Shown: positions 51,566 through 62,045 of the stretch, piece by piece
Layout: the number at the start of each line of letters is the position of its first letter
Position numbering within the stretch: position 1 is the stretch's first letter
Assembly: GCA_014871385.1 (NCBI GenBank)
Contig: CM026425.1
Location: 13,149,668-13,213,667, forward strand
Length of the DNA stretch: 64,000 nt
From: Ceratodon purpureus
Lineage: Eukaryota > Streptophyta > Bryopsida > Pseudoditrichales > Ditrichaceae
Direction: 5' to 3'
Notes under the pieces: generated by a model
The model's input: the letters and a program-made list of their open reading frames with translations, nothing else
Told to the model about the DNA's origin: nothing
Databases searched by the model: none
Program-made: the position numbers and the translations under genes

Positions 51566-54353
51566 ATGAGGGCGCGGTTGATCGGCAACATAGCGAGCCT
51601 CACAAGCTGTTTGCATCCACGCCTACTACCCCAGAGCTTCGCCTTCACAGCTCCAGTCAGTGTTTGCAGGAAGGAGTTTCTTCTCACTTCAGGGCAGGCT
51701 TTGAGCTTCTCACCATCTGGGTTTCTTCATCACCGAACCGAGTCTCTGTCTCGGAATTTCGTCTCGAGGAGAGGCTACAAAGGGACCACAGTCGCCATGG
51801 CGCCTGAGTTTCAACCCCAGTTGGCTCGACAGCCTCCCTCGGAGCCTCTGCCCAAAGCTCCCAATGGTGGAAAGGTATGGGTATGTGAGTAACTGGAGTG
51901 TAGCTTGAAACCATTTTATGTGATGTCTGGATCTCCTGGATTTATGTAAGCTTGGGAAGAAAGGGTTTTACTCATCATAGATGTGGAATTGATGTAGAAC
52001 ATAGTTTGGAACATGCATAGGTTCTGAGTGGGTTGTGGTGATATCTGCAGTACAAGCTTGCAGTATGCCAGCTTTCTGTTACATCTGACAAGGAGAAGAA
52101 TATTGCTCATGCACGGGAGAAGATCGAGGCTGCAGCTGATAACGGGGCCCAGCTTGTTGTTCTTCCTGTGAGTGTGTGATTTGTTCTTGGGCACGGTTGG
52201 ATGAGAGCATGGTTTGTGATGGTTTTTGGATTTCATGTAGTGTGAAGTGTAATGTTAAGTTTTCTTGAGTGTTTTGTGTTTCTAGTGTTGTGGTTTTGTT
52301 TTTGGAGTCGTGGTAGGGGTAGCTGGTAAGTGCGATTGGTAGATGTTATGGACCTTTTTCTCGTACTTAGGGTAGTGTCTTATGAATTTCTGCGTCTGTT
52401 ATGGTATCAGGAGATGTGGAACTGTCCATACTCGAATGACAGCTTCCCGATCTATGCCGAAGACATTGATGCTGGATTTGATGCATCGCCGTCCACAGCT
52501 ATGTTAGCTGAGGTCGCACGGAAGAAGAAAGTTACCATCGTTGCTGGGTCTATACCCGAGCGAAGCTCTGGTAACTTGTACAACACTTGTTGTGTCTTTG
52601 ACAAGAATGGAGAGCTGAAGGCGAAATTCCGCAAGGTATTGAGACCTCATGAACTTGTCAACTTGCTTTCAACTGCTTGTATTACTGTTTGTTTATGAGC
52701 TGAGAAATAACCTGATTGATGTTGTTGCGTGCGATCAGATTCATCTTTTTGACATTGATATTCCCGGAAAGATCACATTTAAGGAGTCCGATTCGCTAAC
52801 TCCTGGAGAAGGACTTTGTGTTGTCGACACTGGTGAGTATTTGAAGCTGTTGATCTTTTGGCAGAGGTGCTGATTTTGTTTTGCGATGCTGTTTAGTTTT
52901 GGGGGCCTTCTTCAGATGATGCTACTTCAAATGCTTATCAATGCTCTGCTAGTTTTTTGAGATTATCTTACTCCTGTTTATGTTTATTTATATGCAGATG
53001 TAGGGCGAATAGCACTTGGAATCTGCTATGATATTCGCTTTCCTGAGATGGCAATGCTTTACTCTGCTCGTGGTACTCACTCTTTCCCATCTTCTCGATG
53101 CTTACCATGCACACTAAAGTGGGGTATTAGGTCGCCCACATCATATTCAGATATGTGTATTAAATTTTTTTGCAGTTTACAATGATTCCAGGCTCCTTCA
53201 ATAAGTTCCTGGATGTACAGGGGCACACATCATATGTTATCCCGGAGCATTCAACATGACTACTGGTCCACTTCATTGGGAGTTATTGCAGAAGGCCAGG
53301 TTTAGTGCCGACTTTGAACTCCTCTTTGCTTCGTCTCTGTTGGTTTCTCATGGTTAGAACCACATCCTTGTCTGCAACTCTCACGGCAAATGTATTCTAA
53401 TATTTCTTATGTCTGCCTATGCATGGGTGTGCTTCATTTCTACGATCCAGAGCTGTGGACAATCAGGTACCTTTCTGCACTTTCTTAATACGCGCTCCTT
53501 TCATTTTAAATCAGGAGCTAATAGGGCTCTGCAGGATTCTAATAGAACGTCTCAGGATTCTCTTTTTCACATTCAAAAGTTGATGCACTTGAGGATTTTC
53601 AGTTTTTTTCTGTTGGCTTGATCACATTATGACAATTGGCAACATCTGCTACAGATATTTGTTGTGACTTGTTCACCTGCTCGTGATCCTAGTGCTGGCT
53701 ACATCGCTTGGGGTCATTCTACTGTTGTTGGGCCTGTGAGTGTTTCCTTTCCTCGCATCAGATTTACAGATTTATGGCTTTTGCATCTTTGATACGAGTA
53801 TTTCATACATGCTATTTCAACATGTCCTATGGTAATTTAACACTTTATAGTCATGTGTTGGGACCAAAGGGTTTGCTGACATACATTGTCGCTAATTGTG
53901 CAATGGGACAGTTTGGCGAAATCTTAGCTACTACTGAGCATGAGGAAGCTACCATCTTTGCAGACATTGACTACTCTCAACTCGACACAAGAAGGTACGA
54001 GCTTTTCCTTGTCCAATTATTTGTACTGTCTGACCTGTACGAAGTGGATTATGTTATTCAACTTATAATGTGGTAGTATGTTCATAGTCAAATTGGAGAA
54101 AATTCATTATGAATCTGACGCAGCCGTTGTGAATTTGGGATTACAATCTCAGATCGTTTACCTTGATGTCGACTTAGAGCTAGACTCACTTTCTCATGTT
54201 GCATTATCATGTCAACATATTGTTCCTGTTTCAAGGTTGGGTTCTGATTCTTCATTTTCTTGCAGGCAAAATATGCCACTTGAGCTCCAAAGACGCGGTG
54301 ACTTGTACCACCTCACTGATGTAACTAGAAAGGACGTTGTGAAATCCTCCTAA
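51566..54353 (+). CDS. Omega-amidase (NIT2-like nitrilase superfamily)
   Basis: Ten exons: 51566-51874, 52051-52167, 52411-52635, 52739-52832, 52998-53072, 53221-53299, 53451-53466, 53655-53735, 53912-53994 and 54266-54353, total 1167 bases, 388 residues. The nitrilase triad is complete: Glu in [12 protein letters not shown], Lys in KAKFRKIHLFDID, Cys in [11 protein letters not shown]. It should hydrolyse alpha-ketoglutaramate and alpha-ketosuccinamate to the 2-oxoacid and ammonia, clearing by-products of glutamine and asparagine transamination. The first about 77 residues are Ser/Arg-rich and look like a plastid or mitochondrial transit peptide. A second in-frame ATG at 51797 has a strong context (GCCATGG) and would give a 311-residue cytosolic form. 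The 16-base exon at 53451 encodes AVDNQ, a stretch of the family core, so it is needed. The closest plant relative by family is Arabidopsis At5g12040. Confidence 0.94.
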
Positions 54354-55595
54354 ATTTTGGGAAAGCTTGCCTACAAGTCTTCCCACTTATCTGGTGCCTT
54401 CGGTTCGCTAATGAGTATTGTAGTAGCACTTGCGCTCTCTTATGAATAATGACTGCACAGAAACTACATCGTGTTTGGTGGGTAATTGGCTTCATTTAAT
54501 GCTTCCTCTCGACTCTGAGGAAAACTTCTCTTATCTCGAGCTCCTATGCGTTACGCTTTTCTTCGTTTTATTTTCTATAATGCTGCAAAACAGGACTAGA
54601 ACGATCCTCTTTGTGACGAGGCAATCACTTGAGCATATATCTGTCACTGTATGGGTGAGATCATTTCACCAATTTCACTTCAACTGCAGCAATCTCCAAG
54701 TCTGTATACACATTGTGGAATGCTTTTGCACGTAATAAATCTCTCCTGTCATGGCCAACTCAACCTCGATTTCACTCTGTGTATGCTTCTTTCATGAGCC
54801 TACAGTCTGAGTAGCTGCTGGGAGCCCTGCCCTGGACGTTTCAGGGGTCTTCAATTGTCAAGGTCAATTTCTGTCACTGTATGCGACATAATTTTGTTCA
54901 ACGATTACGATAATCAGAGAGAAGGGTTCATCTTCAGATTCAAAACATGTCTACGCCTGGTTAATCACCAACTGTATCTGTGGTTCTGCAACAGTCTATC
55001 ACACAGGAAGATCTGATTCTCCCCGGCCCTACCTGCCGTTCCTCGTCTGTCAACACATCGCCGATGTTAGGTGTAGGGGCGGTTTCATGAACATTCCTAG
55101 AACCTAAGCTACAACAATTCCATCCCAACAATCCCCAGCTCCCAGCAAAACAAAACGAACCCATTCTCCTTACCATAATTACCGCAACTTACTATGACTT
55201 AGTTGAAAGTTATTCTCGGTTGTAAGTTATTCTCTACATCCAAAGGCAGCCTTCAACTCTCGGAAGCTCACTTCAGCAACCAAAAAGCGTTGTCCGTAAC
55301 CTCCATACAGACAATGCTAACATACGCGTTAACATGTTTCTGCCTTGCCTTGCCTTGACCTTCACGCTTGTTTGTCTGTTGACATGTCCAGGTAACATCG
55401 TATTTATCGACAGTTCAGTGCCGGCTATTCCGACATCTTCTTTTAGCCCTTACGAGATACATAAATTAGCATCTAGAGTTTACTCCAATTTCATGTCAAG
55501 TTGTTTTCAGTGATCAGGTTTTGGAGTTTGGTTACTCTTGAGGAAGTTGTTAACTAGAGGGGTCGTCGGTAGCGTACTGGTTGAGCTATCGGAGT
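54354..55595. other. Intergenic spacer between the omega-amidase and F-box genes
   Basis: It should hold the amidase 3' UTR and the promoter of the F-box gene. No gene or clear repeat is seen. Confidence 0.4.
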
Positions 55596-56939
55596 ATGAG
55601 ACAGCTTGCATTGCATTCCGGTGAGTGTTCTTCAACAGCTGTTTCTTGCTGTGATTGTTACCAGACAGTGGGCATAGCGGAAGGGGAGGCAGAGAAGATG
55701 AGCGGGTTCGGGACTGCAGGGATCGCGTGGTCTGAGCTGCCGAAGGATGTCCAACACAAGGTGCTCATGAACTTGGGTATTCAGGATTTGTGCCGAATGC
55801 GATGCGTGTGCAGGGAATGGCGCGATGTCATTCATCGGCGTGACTTCCGTGGCATGTACGATGTGGCCAACAGCTCGCAGGAGCCTCACCCGGTGATTTG
55901 CTACTTGGAGTCATCCTATCCGCTTCGTCTGCAATGCACTGCTTACGATTACGAGGGAAGAATGTGGAAGAAGATGAACAGCTTTCCTTCTGTACCTCAG
56001 CGTTCTCTCACGGCACTTAACACTTGTGCCCATGATGAATTCGGGCCACTTTCTAATGTCGGGCTTTATTCTGTAGGAGGACTACTGTGCCTCCACCATT
56101 GGAGTGACCATCGAAGAAGAGAGTATCCGCGTGGTGTGAGTTCCTGGACGGTGTGGAATCCTTTTCGAAATAGATGGAAGAGGCTTCCTCTCTGGTATGA
56201 AAACAGCGGCCAACTTATAGTGGGGAACTCCTTCGTGCATGCTTTTGTCTCAGATGAACGAACCAAGGCGTATAAGATCTTGATGGCTCATGAAGTCGCT
56301 GTCTACCCGAACAACTCTGAAGCCAGTGCGCGAAAATTGGCGACTAAGATTTATGATTCCAGAACAGGGATGTGGACTGATGGAGCTGAGCATACCCTGG
56401 GGGTTGAGCTAATCTATTCTACATCTTCCGTCAGAGGGGTGCTTTGCAACGGTCTGGTCTACTTTGTAGCCGAAACCAGAGATTTTCTGAATATTGGACC
56501 AACCAGGCCAAGCGTGGTCTTGGCTTACGACATCAGTGAAGATGAATGGATCGAACAGCCGCTTAACTCTTATTTTGTGCTCTTTGAGTGGGACGGTCAT
56601 CTGATGACAGTCGATGTCGACAATGCAGTGCTTGGCTGGGAAGAAGATTTCCTAGAGTGGGAGCCAGTGAGTCGTATGTGGAAGGAGACTGGCATAAAGA
56701 TGCCGGGGAAGATCGGCAAGGTGTTTCTCAGTGATTTGGGAGGATTTTCAATAGTCGCGAGTGGGAACCATCTTGCTGTTACCGGTCACACCAGAAATGA
56801 TGAGTTCCGGATCGCGGTGTACAAGAGAGCAGAGAATTACTGGAGGCTGCCTCCCAACGGAAAATTCTCTGATAAGCTGATGTCTTTTCTCGTGAACGGG
56901 CTTGTACTACACACGCCTAGCTTGGATTGGAGACCTTGA
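55596..56939 (+). CDS. Intronless F-box protein with kelch-like C-terminal part
   Basis: The likely start is either the ATG at 55596 or the one at 55698 (MSGFGTAG); I favour 55698 because it lies just before the F-box. From 55698 the protein is 413 residues. The F-box covers about residues 9-50 (WSELPKDVQHKVLMNLGI, CVCREWRDVIHRRDF). The rest reads as an F-box-associated beta-propeller, with WTVWNPFRNRWKRLP and repeated W-x-EP or W-x-P segments. Such proteins bind SKP1 in SCF ubiquitin ligases and choose substrates through the propeller. Single-exon F-box-kelch genes are frequent and fast-multiplying in plants. The substrate is unknown. Confidence 0.88.
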   Translation: MRQLALHSGECSSTAVSCCDCYQTVGIAEGEAEKMSGFGTAGIAWSELPKDVQHKVLMNLGIQDLCRMRCVCREWRDVIHRRDFRGMYDVANSSQEPHPVICYLESSYPLRLQCTAYDYEGRMWKKMNSFPSVPQRSLTALNTCAHDEFGPLSNVGLYSVGGLLCLHHWSDHRRREYPRGVSSWTVWNPFRNRWKRLPLWYENSGQLIVGNSFVHAFVSDERTKAYKILMAHEVAVYPNNSEASARKLATKIYDSRTGMWTDGAEHTLGVELIYSTSSVRGVLCNGLVYFVAETRDFLNIGPTRPSVVLAYDISEDEWIEQPLNSYFVLFEWDGHLMTVDVDNAVLGWEEDFLEWEPVSRMWKETGIKMPGKIGKVFLSDLGGFSIVASGNHLAVTGHTRNDEFRIAVYKRAENYWRLPPNGKFSDKLMSFLVNGLVLHTPSLDWRP

Positions 56940-57975
56940 TTCGGATGTGTTCATTTTTCCTATTTTCTTGATAAGGAGTTCCTTGAACCCCCTTAGATTT
57001 AGGGTTCGGAGGATTCGGAAGAGTGGTTGAGCAAGTTCTCGATTGTAACGAAATTTGTACAGAGTAGCCGTTAGACCTTAGGAGTGGGTTGAGTCGCACC
57101 AAAAGTTTTGACATAAAGAACGCTACAGATTGCGAGTTTGTAAGGTAGGAGACTTGCAGCTGATCTCTTTGAGCAACCAAGGTTTTGCTCGAGGCACCTG
57201 AATGTGCGCTATGTAATATAATCAGTTTCAAGGTACAAGGAAACATGGAACGATTCCAGACCAACTTGGTAGTTTGCTCTAGAGCGATGCCAATTTCACA
57301 ATATGAATCATTCAGCTTATGTCCTTTCAGCAAATGCATTTTGATTCATTATTTGAAGATGAAGAACCCGCACTTAATGAAGCTAGGTTTTAACGAGTAC
57401 ATGATAACCATAGTTTACAGAACACAGTGGAATATCTTCATGGTCAATAGTGTAAACTCCATCTTTGTAAAAACAATTATCATGTGCACCCTACCTTCAG
57501 ATTTTGCATTTTTCTGAGGCATCCATGGGCTACTTTCAAGAGCAACTCCTCCGGTACCCATCCGGATCTCGGTCTGAAGTTTTCTTTCTCTCGTCTAAAC
57601 CTGTCCATCTCACCCCTCCAAGCCTCCATCGGAGCACTCCCAGTTTGATCCGCAATCCATTTATCATAATCAGACTGCAACAAGAGAGCTCAGGCAACAC
57701 TTTAAATGTTTCAGGCAATTCAATATTGTCGGCTGCTGCTACTCAAGACTTCTCAAGGAAATTGTCTCAGAATCTCTCGTCTACTTCTTCTGAGGCCACA
57801 TCTCGGCGTCCCTCTTCACTTTCTGAACCTGCCTCAGAACAACCTCTGGTATCAAAGTGGCCTTCACGGTCACCTTCCCACATTATACCACACGCAACGA
57901 TCGAGACGCGTATCCATTCAACATCACCACACACCACCTCGGGACGCAGTCACGCAGAAGTCACGCACGCACCCT
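56940..57975. other. Region downstream of the F-box and TNL genes, with a possible exon fragment
   Basis: The F-box and TNL genes converge here. On the minus strand about 57526-57680 reads an exon-like peptide (SDYDKWIADQTGSAPMEAWR, then MDRFRREKENFRPRSGWVPE), preceded by a good acceptor (CTCTTGTTGCAG) and followed by a GT. I do not recognise it. It might be a further exon of the TNL gene or a captured gene fragment. On the plus strand several overlapping open frames are present without family signatures. Confidence 0.3.
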
Positions 57976-60900
57976 TCACTGGATTCCCATGTATCTCGAC
58001 AGCGGCACCTGGGTGGACACAGACTCAAAAAGTTGGGGCAAAGAGGCCACTCGCGGCAGATTCATTAGCAGATCTCCTGTGGAACTGTTTTTCTGTAGGC
58101 AGTTGAATGAGGTTTCCAACATATTGCTACATTTTGTCAACCTACTATTAGTGTCAAAATTGTTCTCCGGCCCCCCGCTGCCCAAGCCGTAGCCTCGCCC
58201 GGCGCTCGCGCCGTAGTACCCCCCGCTCCCGTCCGCCACGGGAAACCCCTCGAAGCCTGCCTGGCCCATCGGACCGCTCTGGAACTCCCTACTACCTATC
58301 ACCGCCTGCATCGACCCCATCCGGGCAGCCAGGAGGATTGCTTGCTCGGTCGACAGCGACGCCGACGAGTCCCCGAGCAACACCTGCGCAATCTCGTCCA
58401 AGATCTGCCTGTTCGAGGCCGACATCCCGCCGCTCCCCGCGTACACGTTCATCGGAGCTGCCTTCATCTCCGGAAACTCGTATGGTACGCCGCCGCAGTA
58501 GAGCCGAGTTGATAACATTTTCGTTATGAGTATCACAGAGCTGATACGAGCCTCGAGACATTGAATAACAGCGGGTAATCTGCGCAATTTACAAAGATCA
58601 ACAATAGAGGTATTTATTAAGTTATCGTGGGCGGGATGTTGGTCAATCCCTGGCAGATGTGAGTCATTGTCTGGCATTGTGGGCTCTTCTGGGAAAAGTT
58701 CAGAGTCCACGTTAGATGAAAAGTCCTGTATGTGTTCTTGATACTCAACCTCCCACTCTTTAGTATGGCTGCATCCAAGATCTCGACGCCATTTCTCATG
58801 CAATTGCAACTCGGTTCTGCCACTAACATTGTCTCTGCTGATGATTCGATTCGGCTTCTTTCTCCAGAAACTCGCTACCCTTGACCGCGACATATACACA
58901 AATGAGGCCTCATCCGAACCGTCTGGAACCTCTGCCAGGTAAGGACATTCGCTAAACAAAATCCCCACGGGAATGGATCTTGTGACCTGAGTAAGTCCCA
59001 AAACCCTCTTCACAGAAAGATTAGCAAGAGTGATAGCCTGCAATTGGCTGCAAAGCCCCAAGCCTTCTAGATTCAGCTCGTCACCGCCACGACCACCATA
59101 GTCGTTGAGTATCCAGAGATAGCGCAATGAACTTAGTGATGTCGCTAAACTCCTGCTTAGTTGTGGACAAAGACGCACATCAGTCTCCAGTGTCCCCAGA
59201 TTCGAGCACCCCTCGATTCTTAGAGGCTCTTTCAAGTTCGAGCAATTTCGTATCGAGATCACACGCAGGAAGGCGCGGAAGGATCCGAAATCAGGCAGAC
59301 GCTTCAGTGATTCGAGTCCCGAAAACAACACAAACCGCAAAGAATCACTCTCTGATGGAAGGGTAAGCGTCTCAAGATTCTTGAGATCGACAAGCTCAAG
59401 ATGACGGAGTCGATCCAGCCCATCCAGATTCAGCTCCCTCACGTGCGTGCAGGATTGCAGCTGTAGCAAAATAAGGGATTCCCACTCCCGTTGTACTCGT
59501 CTTGTTGGAATACGGCCTTCAAACTCAACAATTCGTATCCTGGTCCTTTCATGATTAGGAGGTGCACATTCTCGCACACACCATTCATTCTTCAAGGAGA
59601 CCCCTTTGGTAACAAACCACACCGCAAATTCTTTGTAGAGCTGGTGCATCGTCATCCCCGATCTTATATCCAGCCATTCATTCAAGATGCCCGACCTCTC
59701 CAATCGCTTCAACTGCATGTGCACTCATTTACATTACCGTTAGAGTACATCCATCCAAACACGACTTGCGTAAGCCTGAGTAAAATTGAAAAGTAATGAA
59801 GTCAGCTTCAAAGAAGTGCTTCTGAAAGCAAATAGCCGCCTATGAGTCCCTTGTGTTGAGATGAAACAGATATCGCTCATGAAAACGGCCAACACTGTTG
59901 AAAAAATGAAATCACAGGTACTTACGACTCCCTTCACGAATGCTGGCGGTGAATCCATATGCAATCCTCCGAGCCAAGTGACCCAATCTTCAGCTGACAA
60001 AGAGATAGACACCTTATCTCCGAACAGGGCAATATCCAAGAAGAAGAGCTGCTCGATTTGCTCGAGGCTTTTGAACTGCATCTCCAAAACACCAAATAGA
60101 TCGAGGGAGTAACCTTGGTCAACAGCTTCAAGATACTTCTCCCAAACCGACAAAGATTTCTTGTTGATTGCTTGATTCTGGAAGCAATTTGCCAGTGCTC
60201 GTATGGCCATGGGGTGATATTGTCGTGAGGCCAAGAAATGATACTGTTGGCCCCTGCCCCTTGGAAACCGGCATTGTTCGACACAGAGTGCAAGACCTCG
60301 TCCCTCCTCGCCAGTAAGTGCTGACAGCATCTTCCCTGGTGCAGCCATTTTCAAAAATACAGTTTCTGCTTCCTCTTGAGTCAAACTTGGCACTGGCTTG
60401 CAAAATTTGGAATGAGAGAGTAAACCTTCAACGATATTTTGTCCTCTTGATGTGACTAAGATTCTGCTCTTGGGACAGAATCCCGCCTCGAGGTATGCTC
60501 GGGCTTCATCAAGCGAACGCTGGTCACCAGAAACATTGTCTATAGCCAGAAACACTCCCGATTGCCGCTTTATTCTATCTTGCTCTAGGCAATTTCTCAT
60601 CAAAGTCCTTCCCTGTCATGATTATGCATCAAGTTAACACAATCAGAGGAGGTCATGAAGTCATCAAATTGCATATGACCTAAACAAGTATTAATTGCGA
60701 CAATATTATGTTGTTTCATATTTATCAAAGTCCATGAATATTTTGACAGAAGGTGCCTAGACAACAATGATACGAGCTTAGGGATACTGCACTTCATTAT
60801 CAATCAGCACACATGTTGATATTTCATCTAAGATCTAATCTTAGTCTTTTTCACCACAGCATGGTCAGCTGAGATTGTGAGACCAATGTGTATTACATAA

Positions 60901-62045
60901 ATCCAACCACTTGGATCAGGCTGTATTACCTGATCAACATCCTTCACTCCATCCAGCACATCATTCTTCAAACCCCAAAGCTTCTCCAGCACCTCTTTTT
61001 GCCGCATTAGGGCTTTGGAAGAGTCGCCCAACTCCAAGTGACAGACCCTGCCCATCAACTCCCGATGAAAATAATCATTTAAAGCTTTACACATTGTTGT
61101 CTTGCCGAGGCCGGCCATTCCATACAAACCCAACAGCAACACTCCCGACTTCGTGTCTTCAACAAATAGACTCGACAAATGCTGCAAGAAGCAGAGGAAG
61201 AGGTTTATCAGCATGTAAAATTGTGACACGAGAGAAACACACATCAGTAACAAAAAATCTTGCTTTTCAAAGTTACAGGCTTGATGGAACTGGGATAGCC
61301 CCGTGAAGGAGAGCGGTGTATATGGAGTGAGGGAGAGCAGAATATTCGATATCTTTGAAATGTGAAAACACAGAAACTCTAAAGTGAAAATCAAAGGTTA
61401 CAAAACAGCAAACCTAATGTCTTCACGTACCTCACAAAGTCGATTGTAACCAACCATGCTTTCGGAACTACCATACAGCAAATCTGGAGAGGACAACCGT
61501 AAAATTGCTTGCACGATAGCACTTCTGTACTTCACCTCCGATCGGATTCCAGTACTTGACTTGTGCCGTGCCCTCGGCTTTTCAAAAATGAGACCATTCA
61601 CTTTGGGCAGCGCTAATACGGCATCTCTCCACAGATTCACGTCGATTCTCTTGTCTGTGCTAGCAAACTCTTGCCATTTAGGCATCCAACGCTCGCTTAT
61701 AGACTGCTCATCAAGATCTTCAATTGATAACTTGAAGAACAGAGGGAGCATGTTTAACGATGAATTTTCACTTTTTTTAGCTTCATGAAATTTACCCAAC
61801 TCTATCATTGGCCACTTGGAGGTCAAGAATGTTTCTGACAACACAACAACACCAACATGGCATAGTTTCGCAGCTTCCAAAATCAATGCTGCAAAATCCT
61901 TGCCTTTGGGCAAACTATGACTTCTTTGGTCAAAAAAGGGGAAAGAATAGCCTGTCGCTTCAAGATCCACACACAACTGCTCCACAAAGTTCTTCTCCGC
62001 TCCTGAATGACTTAGGAAAATCTTGTGCTTGGTCTTGTGGAGCAT
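57976..62045 (-). CDS. TIR-NBS-LRR immune receptor with a C-terminal extension
   Basis: Four exons on the minus strand: 61431-62045 (TIR), 60930-61181 (P-loop), 59926-60612 (rest of NB-ARC) and 57976-59712 (end of ARC, LRR, tail); phase 0 throughout, 1096 residues. TIR: KHKIFLSHSGAEKNFVEQL, then SKWPMIELGKF, which keeps the Glu used by NADase TIRs. NB-ARC: GMAGLGKTT P-loop, VFLAIDNV at kinase-2 (second Asp replaced by Asn), SRILVTSRG at RNBS-B, HPMAIRAL in place of GLPLAL, LFFLDIALF at RNBS-D, and TMHQLYKEF in place of MHD. LRRs follow (LRHLELVDLKNLETLTLP and further). From about 58505 down to 58170 the frame enters a GC-rich stretch (MSASNRQILDEIAQVLLG, Gly/Tyr-rich end) unlike the rest. Expected role: intracellular pathogen sensor. 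Whether the tail is truly part of the protein is uncertain. Confidence 0.85.

Follow-up and report, generated by a model that had tools for sequence, protein, structure and literature searches.

The stretch of DNA analysed here, referred to as the window, is 64,000 bp of the Ceratodon purpureus genome (C5:13149668-13213667). On its minus strand lies a gene predicted to encode a TIR-NBS-LRR receptor (TNL), and the last exon of this gene runs on in frame into sequence that matches the end of a gene on C12 (Table 1). Three introns interrupt the TNL, and their GT and AG ends are common to the C5 gene and its relatives on C10 and C2. When the exons are joined, the 922 TNL residues match the Pfam models TIR_2 (53 bits, cut-off 28) and NB-ARC (28.4 bits, cut-off 23.5). 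The best LRR model gives 16.2 bits, against a cut-off of 27. The start codon is provisional, as the C2 paralog has ACG at that place.

Other genes lie nearby. Open frames resembling exons at 52330-54353 on the plus strand belong to what we take to be a nitrilase/omega-amidase family gene. An F-box gene at 55000-57707 (Pfam F-box 6e-11) has a copy about 11 kb away at C5:13215515-13218242, with 86% identity. The TNL unit sits between these two F-box copies, the first of which breaks off at 57707.

Table 1. Features of the TNL locus, by position in the window
Feature	Position	Strand	Remarks
TNL exon 1	61431..62045	-	TIR domain; Pfam TIR_2 6e-14 on joined exons
TNL exon 2	60930..61181	-	P-loop of NB-ARC; GT/AG flanks in all three paralogs
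TNL exon 3	59926..60612	-	Rest of NB-ARC and following region
TNL last exon	57976..59712	-	LRR-like 58501-59712 and in-frame donor tail 57979-58500; stop 57976-57978
TNL/donor junction	58497..58500	-	TACT common to donor and C2/C96 TNL paralogs, not C10
Captured segment	57879..58500	-	622 bp, from 3' end of TRF2/HOY1 PH-like family gene on C12
GC-rich coding part of captured segment	58165..58500	-	GC3 0.86
Donor sequence behind donor stop	57879..57975	-	97 bp
Remnant of last exon of HMA-domain gene	57781..57879	-	32 codons and stop
Sequence behind HMA stop	57720..57780	-	Internal deletion of ~105 bp relative to C4 and C96
Filler	57708..57719	.	12 bp, between F-box 3' flank and HMA remnant (by eye)

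A GC-rich tail on the last TNL exon

An earlier note on this DNA had claimed that the last TNL exon stays open through a GC-rich segment that looks foreign. It does. A minus-strand open frame of 582 amino acids (57976-59724) passes through the GC-rich stretch with no stop, and the peptides quoted for the segment are present in it. The GC content at 58170-58505 is 67.3%, whereas that of the whole window is 42.1%, and no other 336-bp stretch of the window is as rich. Only 3 of 3184 such stretches, taken in 20-bp steps, come within 3 GC points of it, and all three overlap it. GC3 falls from the 0.86 of the coding part to 0.49 in the LRR exon. The presence of a GC-rich in-frame stretch at the 3' end of the TNL is therefore confirmed. 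What did not stand is the placing of the foreign segment's borders at 58170 and 58505. The copied segment in fact extends from 57879 to 58500, and its 3' part (57879-58162) has a GC content of 49%.

TNL paralogs were found on C10, C2 and C96. A comparison of 3378 bp showed no difference between the last of these and C2, so C96 is probably a redundant contig. Immediately before the junction, over 500 bp, the paralogs are 93-95% identical to the C5 gene. The match then stops, at 58501 for C10 and at 58497 for C2 and C96. Beyond this point C2 and C10 have a native end in common, which is 26 codons long if unspliced. Inside it is a splice-donor-like site (CAG/GTGCGT), and the real native end may thus be a spliced one. 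This end is absent in the C5 gene. There are instead 174 donor codons in the donor frame, the donor stop and 97 donor bases, the latter taken as the putative 3'UTR of the donor. Since the paralogs match C5 until the junction and then diverge, it is the C5 gene that has lost its native end. Of the segment's three sense frames, the donor's alone stays open over 174 codons, the others stopping after 11 and 68. The predicted fusion protein thus consists of 922 TNL residues and 174 donor residues, ending at the donor stop. In other words, there is an extra tail that is in frame with the NLR, derived from a host gene and absent in the close paralogs.

The ~130 TNL residues before the junction (58501-58890) are matched only by the C2, C96 and C10 copies among the matches listed. 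None of the other matches among the 35 listed extends past residue 278. A further TNL paralog, 92% identical, is apparently split between C5:9990868-9991419 and C5:10009031-10009105, 18 kb apart. Its second piece comprises 25 residues within a 3365-residue open frame, which is perhaps a large transposable element.

The captured segment and its donor

A search of the genome (362 Mb) with the GC-rich stretch gave at least three matches, namely C5 itself and two on C12. The captured segment is 99.7% identical to C12:8012192-8012813 (hereafter C12a), with 2 differences in 622 bp, and the limits of this match on C5 are 57879 and 58500. It is 99.2% identical to a second copy on the opposite strand (C12:8057119-8057743), with 2 mismatches and one 3-bp gap. 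The two C12 copies are ~45 kb apart, inside a longer duplicated block (98.2% identity over 3006 bp). Which of them was the template? There are zero substitutions between them inside the segment, and the 3-bp insertion in the second copy is the sole difference that favours the first.

On C12 the counterpart of the segment begins within a 211-codon open frame, takes in its 3' part and continues behind the stop. Open frames resembling exons lie upstream of this last exon. Joined by hand at guessed splice points, the donor exons, whose limits are predicted, match the TRF2/HOY1 PH-like domain of Pfam (PF24818) with an E value of 4e-56 and 188.4 bits (cut-off 24). A search of the genome with the PF24818 profile gave four exon matches, all within the C12 pair. 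The domain sits in the upstream exons, outside the copied piece, and a Pfam search of the donor last exon found no family over its cut-off. The captured tail is the donor's C-terminus. The C12 donor has the domain of its family, whereas the TNL is without it, only the C-terminal tail having been copied. When 192 residues of that C-terminus were searched against the genome as protein, C5 and the two C12 places were found, together with one very weak fourth (C12:4300330; E 0.026, two stops). Both C12 copies have an intact open frame in the donor last exon, so the segment was copied, not cut. The suggestion that a captured gene fragment lies at the 3' end of the TNL thus held up. Its source is the last exon of this C12 gene and the bases that follow, and the search for a stand-alone relative led to a host gene pair.

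ASG1/AT2G24100 was a guess at the identity of the donor, and a literature search on it returned only work on other genes. A search for literature on HOY1 with TRF2 in Arabidopsis found none, and a looser search also came back without HOY1. Between C12:8011912-8012811 and the copy near C12:8057100-8058000 there are zero substitutions in three consecutive 300-bp bins, including bases behind the stop. Elsewhere in the duplicated block the number per 300-bp bin ranges from 0 to 20. Either recent gene conversion or strong constraint may explain the substitution-free bins.

Other origins for the segment were considered. A plain repeat is ruled out by the genome matches (at least three), two of which are the donor pair. 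Horizontal transfer into the TNL is ruled out because the segment comes from a C12 gene of the host, with PF24818 exon-like frames upstream. The reverse direction, in which the C12 gene would have derived its tail from the TNL, is ruled out because the C12 open frame runs on upstream of the junction point.

Comparison with donor and paralogs shows the last exon of the predicted TNL to be a chimera, in which a 622-bp end of a C12 gene was copied to C5 and replaced the native end. How long ago? C5 differs from C12a at 58042 and 58486. The second C12 copy has no substitution relative to the first, and so both differences are confined to C5. Neither changes an amino acid (TCG to TCT and GTG to GTA), and the 174 tail residues are 100% identical to those of the C12a donor. 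Random single changes in the captured coding part would be synonymous in 23.4% of cases, which gives two of two a chance of ~0.05; two changes are too few to show constraint. The divergence of the segment is 0.3% (Poisson 95% range 0.04-1.2%). The Ks of the TNL part is far higher, at 0.077 between C5 and C10 and 0.090 between C5 and C2. From these distances we infer that the capture is recent, much younger than the TNL duplications and long after the split of the paralogs.

The junctions and how the fusion may have arisen

The two ends of the segment are readable to the base. At the TNL junction the microhomology is 4 bp provided that the ancestor of the C5 gene resembled C2; had it resembled C10, there would be none. 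Random joining would give 4 bp or more in 1.6% of cases. At the 57879 junction there is at most 1 bp. No direct repeats longer than 2 bp were found between the 21-bp stretches at both breakpoints, and so there is no target-site duplication. No inverted repeats longer than 6 bp were found in the 60-bp stretches at the segment ends, leaving these without a terminal inverted repeat. No poly(A) was seen by eye at the 57879 junction.

What lies beyond 57879 is the end of yet another gene. The HMA remnant differs from its C4 counterpart at 12 of 99 bases, and 11 of the 12 are in amino-acid-changing codons, which argues that the remnant is decayed and probably older than the capture. The 32 residues on C5 alone have no Pfam match. 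Two C4 exon parts joined by hand match the Pfam HMA model with 35.6 bits (cut-off 24.8). Sequence related to the bases that follow the HMA stop also lies ~2 kb behind the TNL on C2 (C2:21717010-21717190) and on C96, and no match was found in the C10 stretch. The filler that separates the remnant from the F-box flank contains TCAGGCAA, and the same 8 bases occur at 57690-57697.

HMA is known as an integrated domain of rice NLRs. The HMA piece on C5 lies behind the stop codon, outside the fusion frame. At 63851-64993, running past the end of the window, three pieces are 76-78% identical to C4:9872994-9873847. That C4 stretch is 11 kb from the HMA gene, and the match is in the opposite orientation to the HMA match.

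The likely origin of this in-frame NLR fusion is a recent interchromosomal copy-and-paste, probably by templated break repair. A break at the C5 TNL locus would have been repaired with the C12 gene as ectopic template. The 622-bp copy would then have been joined by templated insertion, through microhomology or by blunt joining. This would have placed it between the last TNL codons and the decayed HMA remnant, with loss of the native end. More tentatively, the fusion may then have been transcribed, the tail being carried along, tolerated or tried as a new sensor part. Does the frame itself speak for selection? A random insertion would give an in-frame sense fusion in about 1 in 6 cases, and so the frame is no proof of it.

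Of the marks of templated insertion, the donor is kept and the native end is replaced; microhomology amounts to 0-4 bp at one junction and 0-1 bp at the other. Two points count against break repair: templated insertions are usually described as shorter than 622 bp, and the HMA remnant is shared with C2 and C96 but not with C10. Templated insertions mark polymerase-theta end joining in Arabidopsis (PMC10923293). In the passages of that paper on templated insertions and filler DNA in plants, the insert is likewise a copy with the donor kept, there is little or no microhomology and the target suffers a deletion (PMC10923293). However, the C5 segment is much longer than the small segments described in those passages.

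Could a transposable element have done this instead? A Helitron, a Pack-MULE or an element of some other type might have picked up the end of the C12 gene and carried it to the TNL locus. Three gene 3' parts, all in one orientation, make up a patchwork there, which would suit such an element. Helitrons are marked by a 5' TC, by a 3' hairpin and CTRR, and by insertion between A and T. Transposable elements are known to take up pieces of genes, a matter discussed in the grass study of Bailey et al. (PMC5819176). However, the ends of the 622-bp segment have neither target-site duplication nor terminal inverted repeat, and the native end was replaced, not split. On C2 and C96 the TNL is separated from the HMA-related sequence by ~2 kb, an interval in which C5 contains nothing but the segment and the HMA coding piece. 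The genome search, whose counts are lower bounds, found no copy of the segment beyond C5 and the C12 pair. Break repair with copied inserts appears to fit better than a transposon, which we regard as decidedly unlikely.

An mRNA origin is highly unlikely. According to this explanation, a fragment of donor mRNA was reverse-transcribed and then inserted. Because the segment falls within the donor last exon and what follows its stop, introns do not speak against a cDNA origin, and the sense orientation of the segment counts for mRNA too. Against this, there is neither poly(A) nor target-site duplication, and the copy begins inside the donor last exon. That the assembler made a chimeric join is scarcely credible: although the assembly has an apparently redundant contig in C96, C5 carries two private substitutions absent in both C12 copies, and at the left junction the segment meets a third sequence that has a divergence of its own.

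What the fusion may do and what it means

Break repair would explain how the fusion arose, but is the gene at work? The C5 and C10 TNLs are open up to the junction, whereas the C2 copy has a one-base frameshift and is without ATG at the assumed start. The dN/dS of the TNL part is 0.46 between C5 and C10 and 0.39 between C5 and C2. By exon it is 0.11-0.22 for the TIR exon and the first NB exon (C5 pairs) and 0.61-0.71 for the LRR exon (all pairs). By these ratios the TNL family has been under constraint, although most of the time behind them precedes the capture. Counts of private changes (synonymous/non-synonymous) are 21/35 for C5, 22/36 for C10 and 29.5/31.5 for the frameshifted C2. They do not set C5 apart from the frameshifted copy, whose counts look no more relaxed, and the dN/dS of the TNL says little on present function. 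The most likely product is a predicted TNL with the 174-residue donor tail, and we put the chances that it is expressed as such at about even.

The earlier note had offered an integrated decoy domain as one explanation. The donor, or its C-terminal tail, would be an effector target and the TNL would watch the copy. An open in-frame fusion with the donor stop kept, a tail protein identical to that of C12a and a TNL part that is open, with the dN/dS values given above, speak for such a working receptor. The expansion of NLRs with integrated domains (NLR-IDs) in Ceratodon, which is reported by Chia et al. (PMC11218826), points the same way. However, the folded PH-like domain was left out of the capture, and for this reason an integrated decoy is unproven. 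What was copied comes from a donor last exon that has no Pfam family over cut-off, and the tail is without a solved structural relative (one match, best E 0.99). For the last-exon protein, an AlphaFold model built from a 4-row alignment has very low confidence (mean pLDDT 36.1). The fusion is also too young to show selection. The TNL dN/dS reflects mostly pre-capture time and is of no help in telling C5 from the frameshifted C2 copy. A working decoy is therefore unlikely, and we favour a tail that is tolerated over one that is selected. Perhaps a TNL has been caught at the very outset of acquiring a new C-terminal sensor, through an expressed TNL-TRF2/HOY1 tail fusion, possibly still polymorphic between moss isolates, made by one-step templated repair from a gene of another chromosome. 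This idea is tentative, and we consider it unlikely.

How does the C5 fusion compare with known cases? Among the papers listed by a literature search limited to open-licence work, no earlier description of it was found. The earlier note's further claim, that such a fusion would be a notable NLR novelty in a moss, was overstated, as Chia et al. already report NLR-ID expansion in Ceratodon and Sphagnum (PMC11218826). The same authors place mosses, above all Ceratodon purpureus with more than 315, among the plants of their set with the largest receptor repertoires (PMC11218826). Reshuffling at NLR ends in bryophytes is described in passages of Andolfo et al. (PMC7145615). One of the closest known likenesses is NLR-AP2a on wheat chromosome 5BL, as presented in passages of the grass study (PMC5819176). 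There, too, a C-terminal copy comes from an intact host gene on another chromosome, an older C-terminus is displaced and no clear transposon footprint is seen. The C5 gene differs from it, in so far as those passages describe it, in being a moss TNL joined to its new part in frame and within an exon, with no intron used. The piece it acquired also differs, being a tail without a recognised domain and only 2 in 622 bp away from its donor.

Fusions of NLRs to host domains are known, mosses included, and the C5 case stands out as young and with readable junctions. How NLRs gain foreign domains is an open question. In the passages of the grass study on mechanism, Bailey et al. weigh retrotransposition, transposition and ectopic recombination, having found no clear transposon footprint, and suggest that integrations of the most recent date might reveal which of them is at work (PMC5819176). 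The C5 fusion is a fresh example, with the donor, the unfused paralogs and both junctions all readable and a copy 2 in 622 bp from its donor. The moss gametophyte is haploid. With so much of the event readable and so little divergence since, the mechanism and a possible polymorphism of the fusion would be directly testable in the moss.
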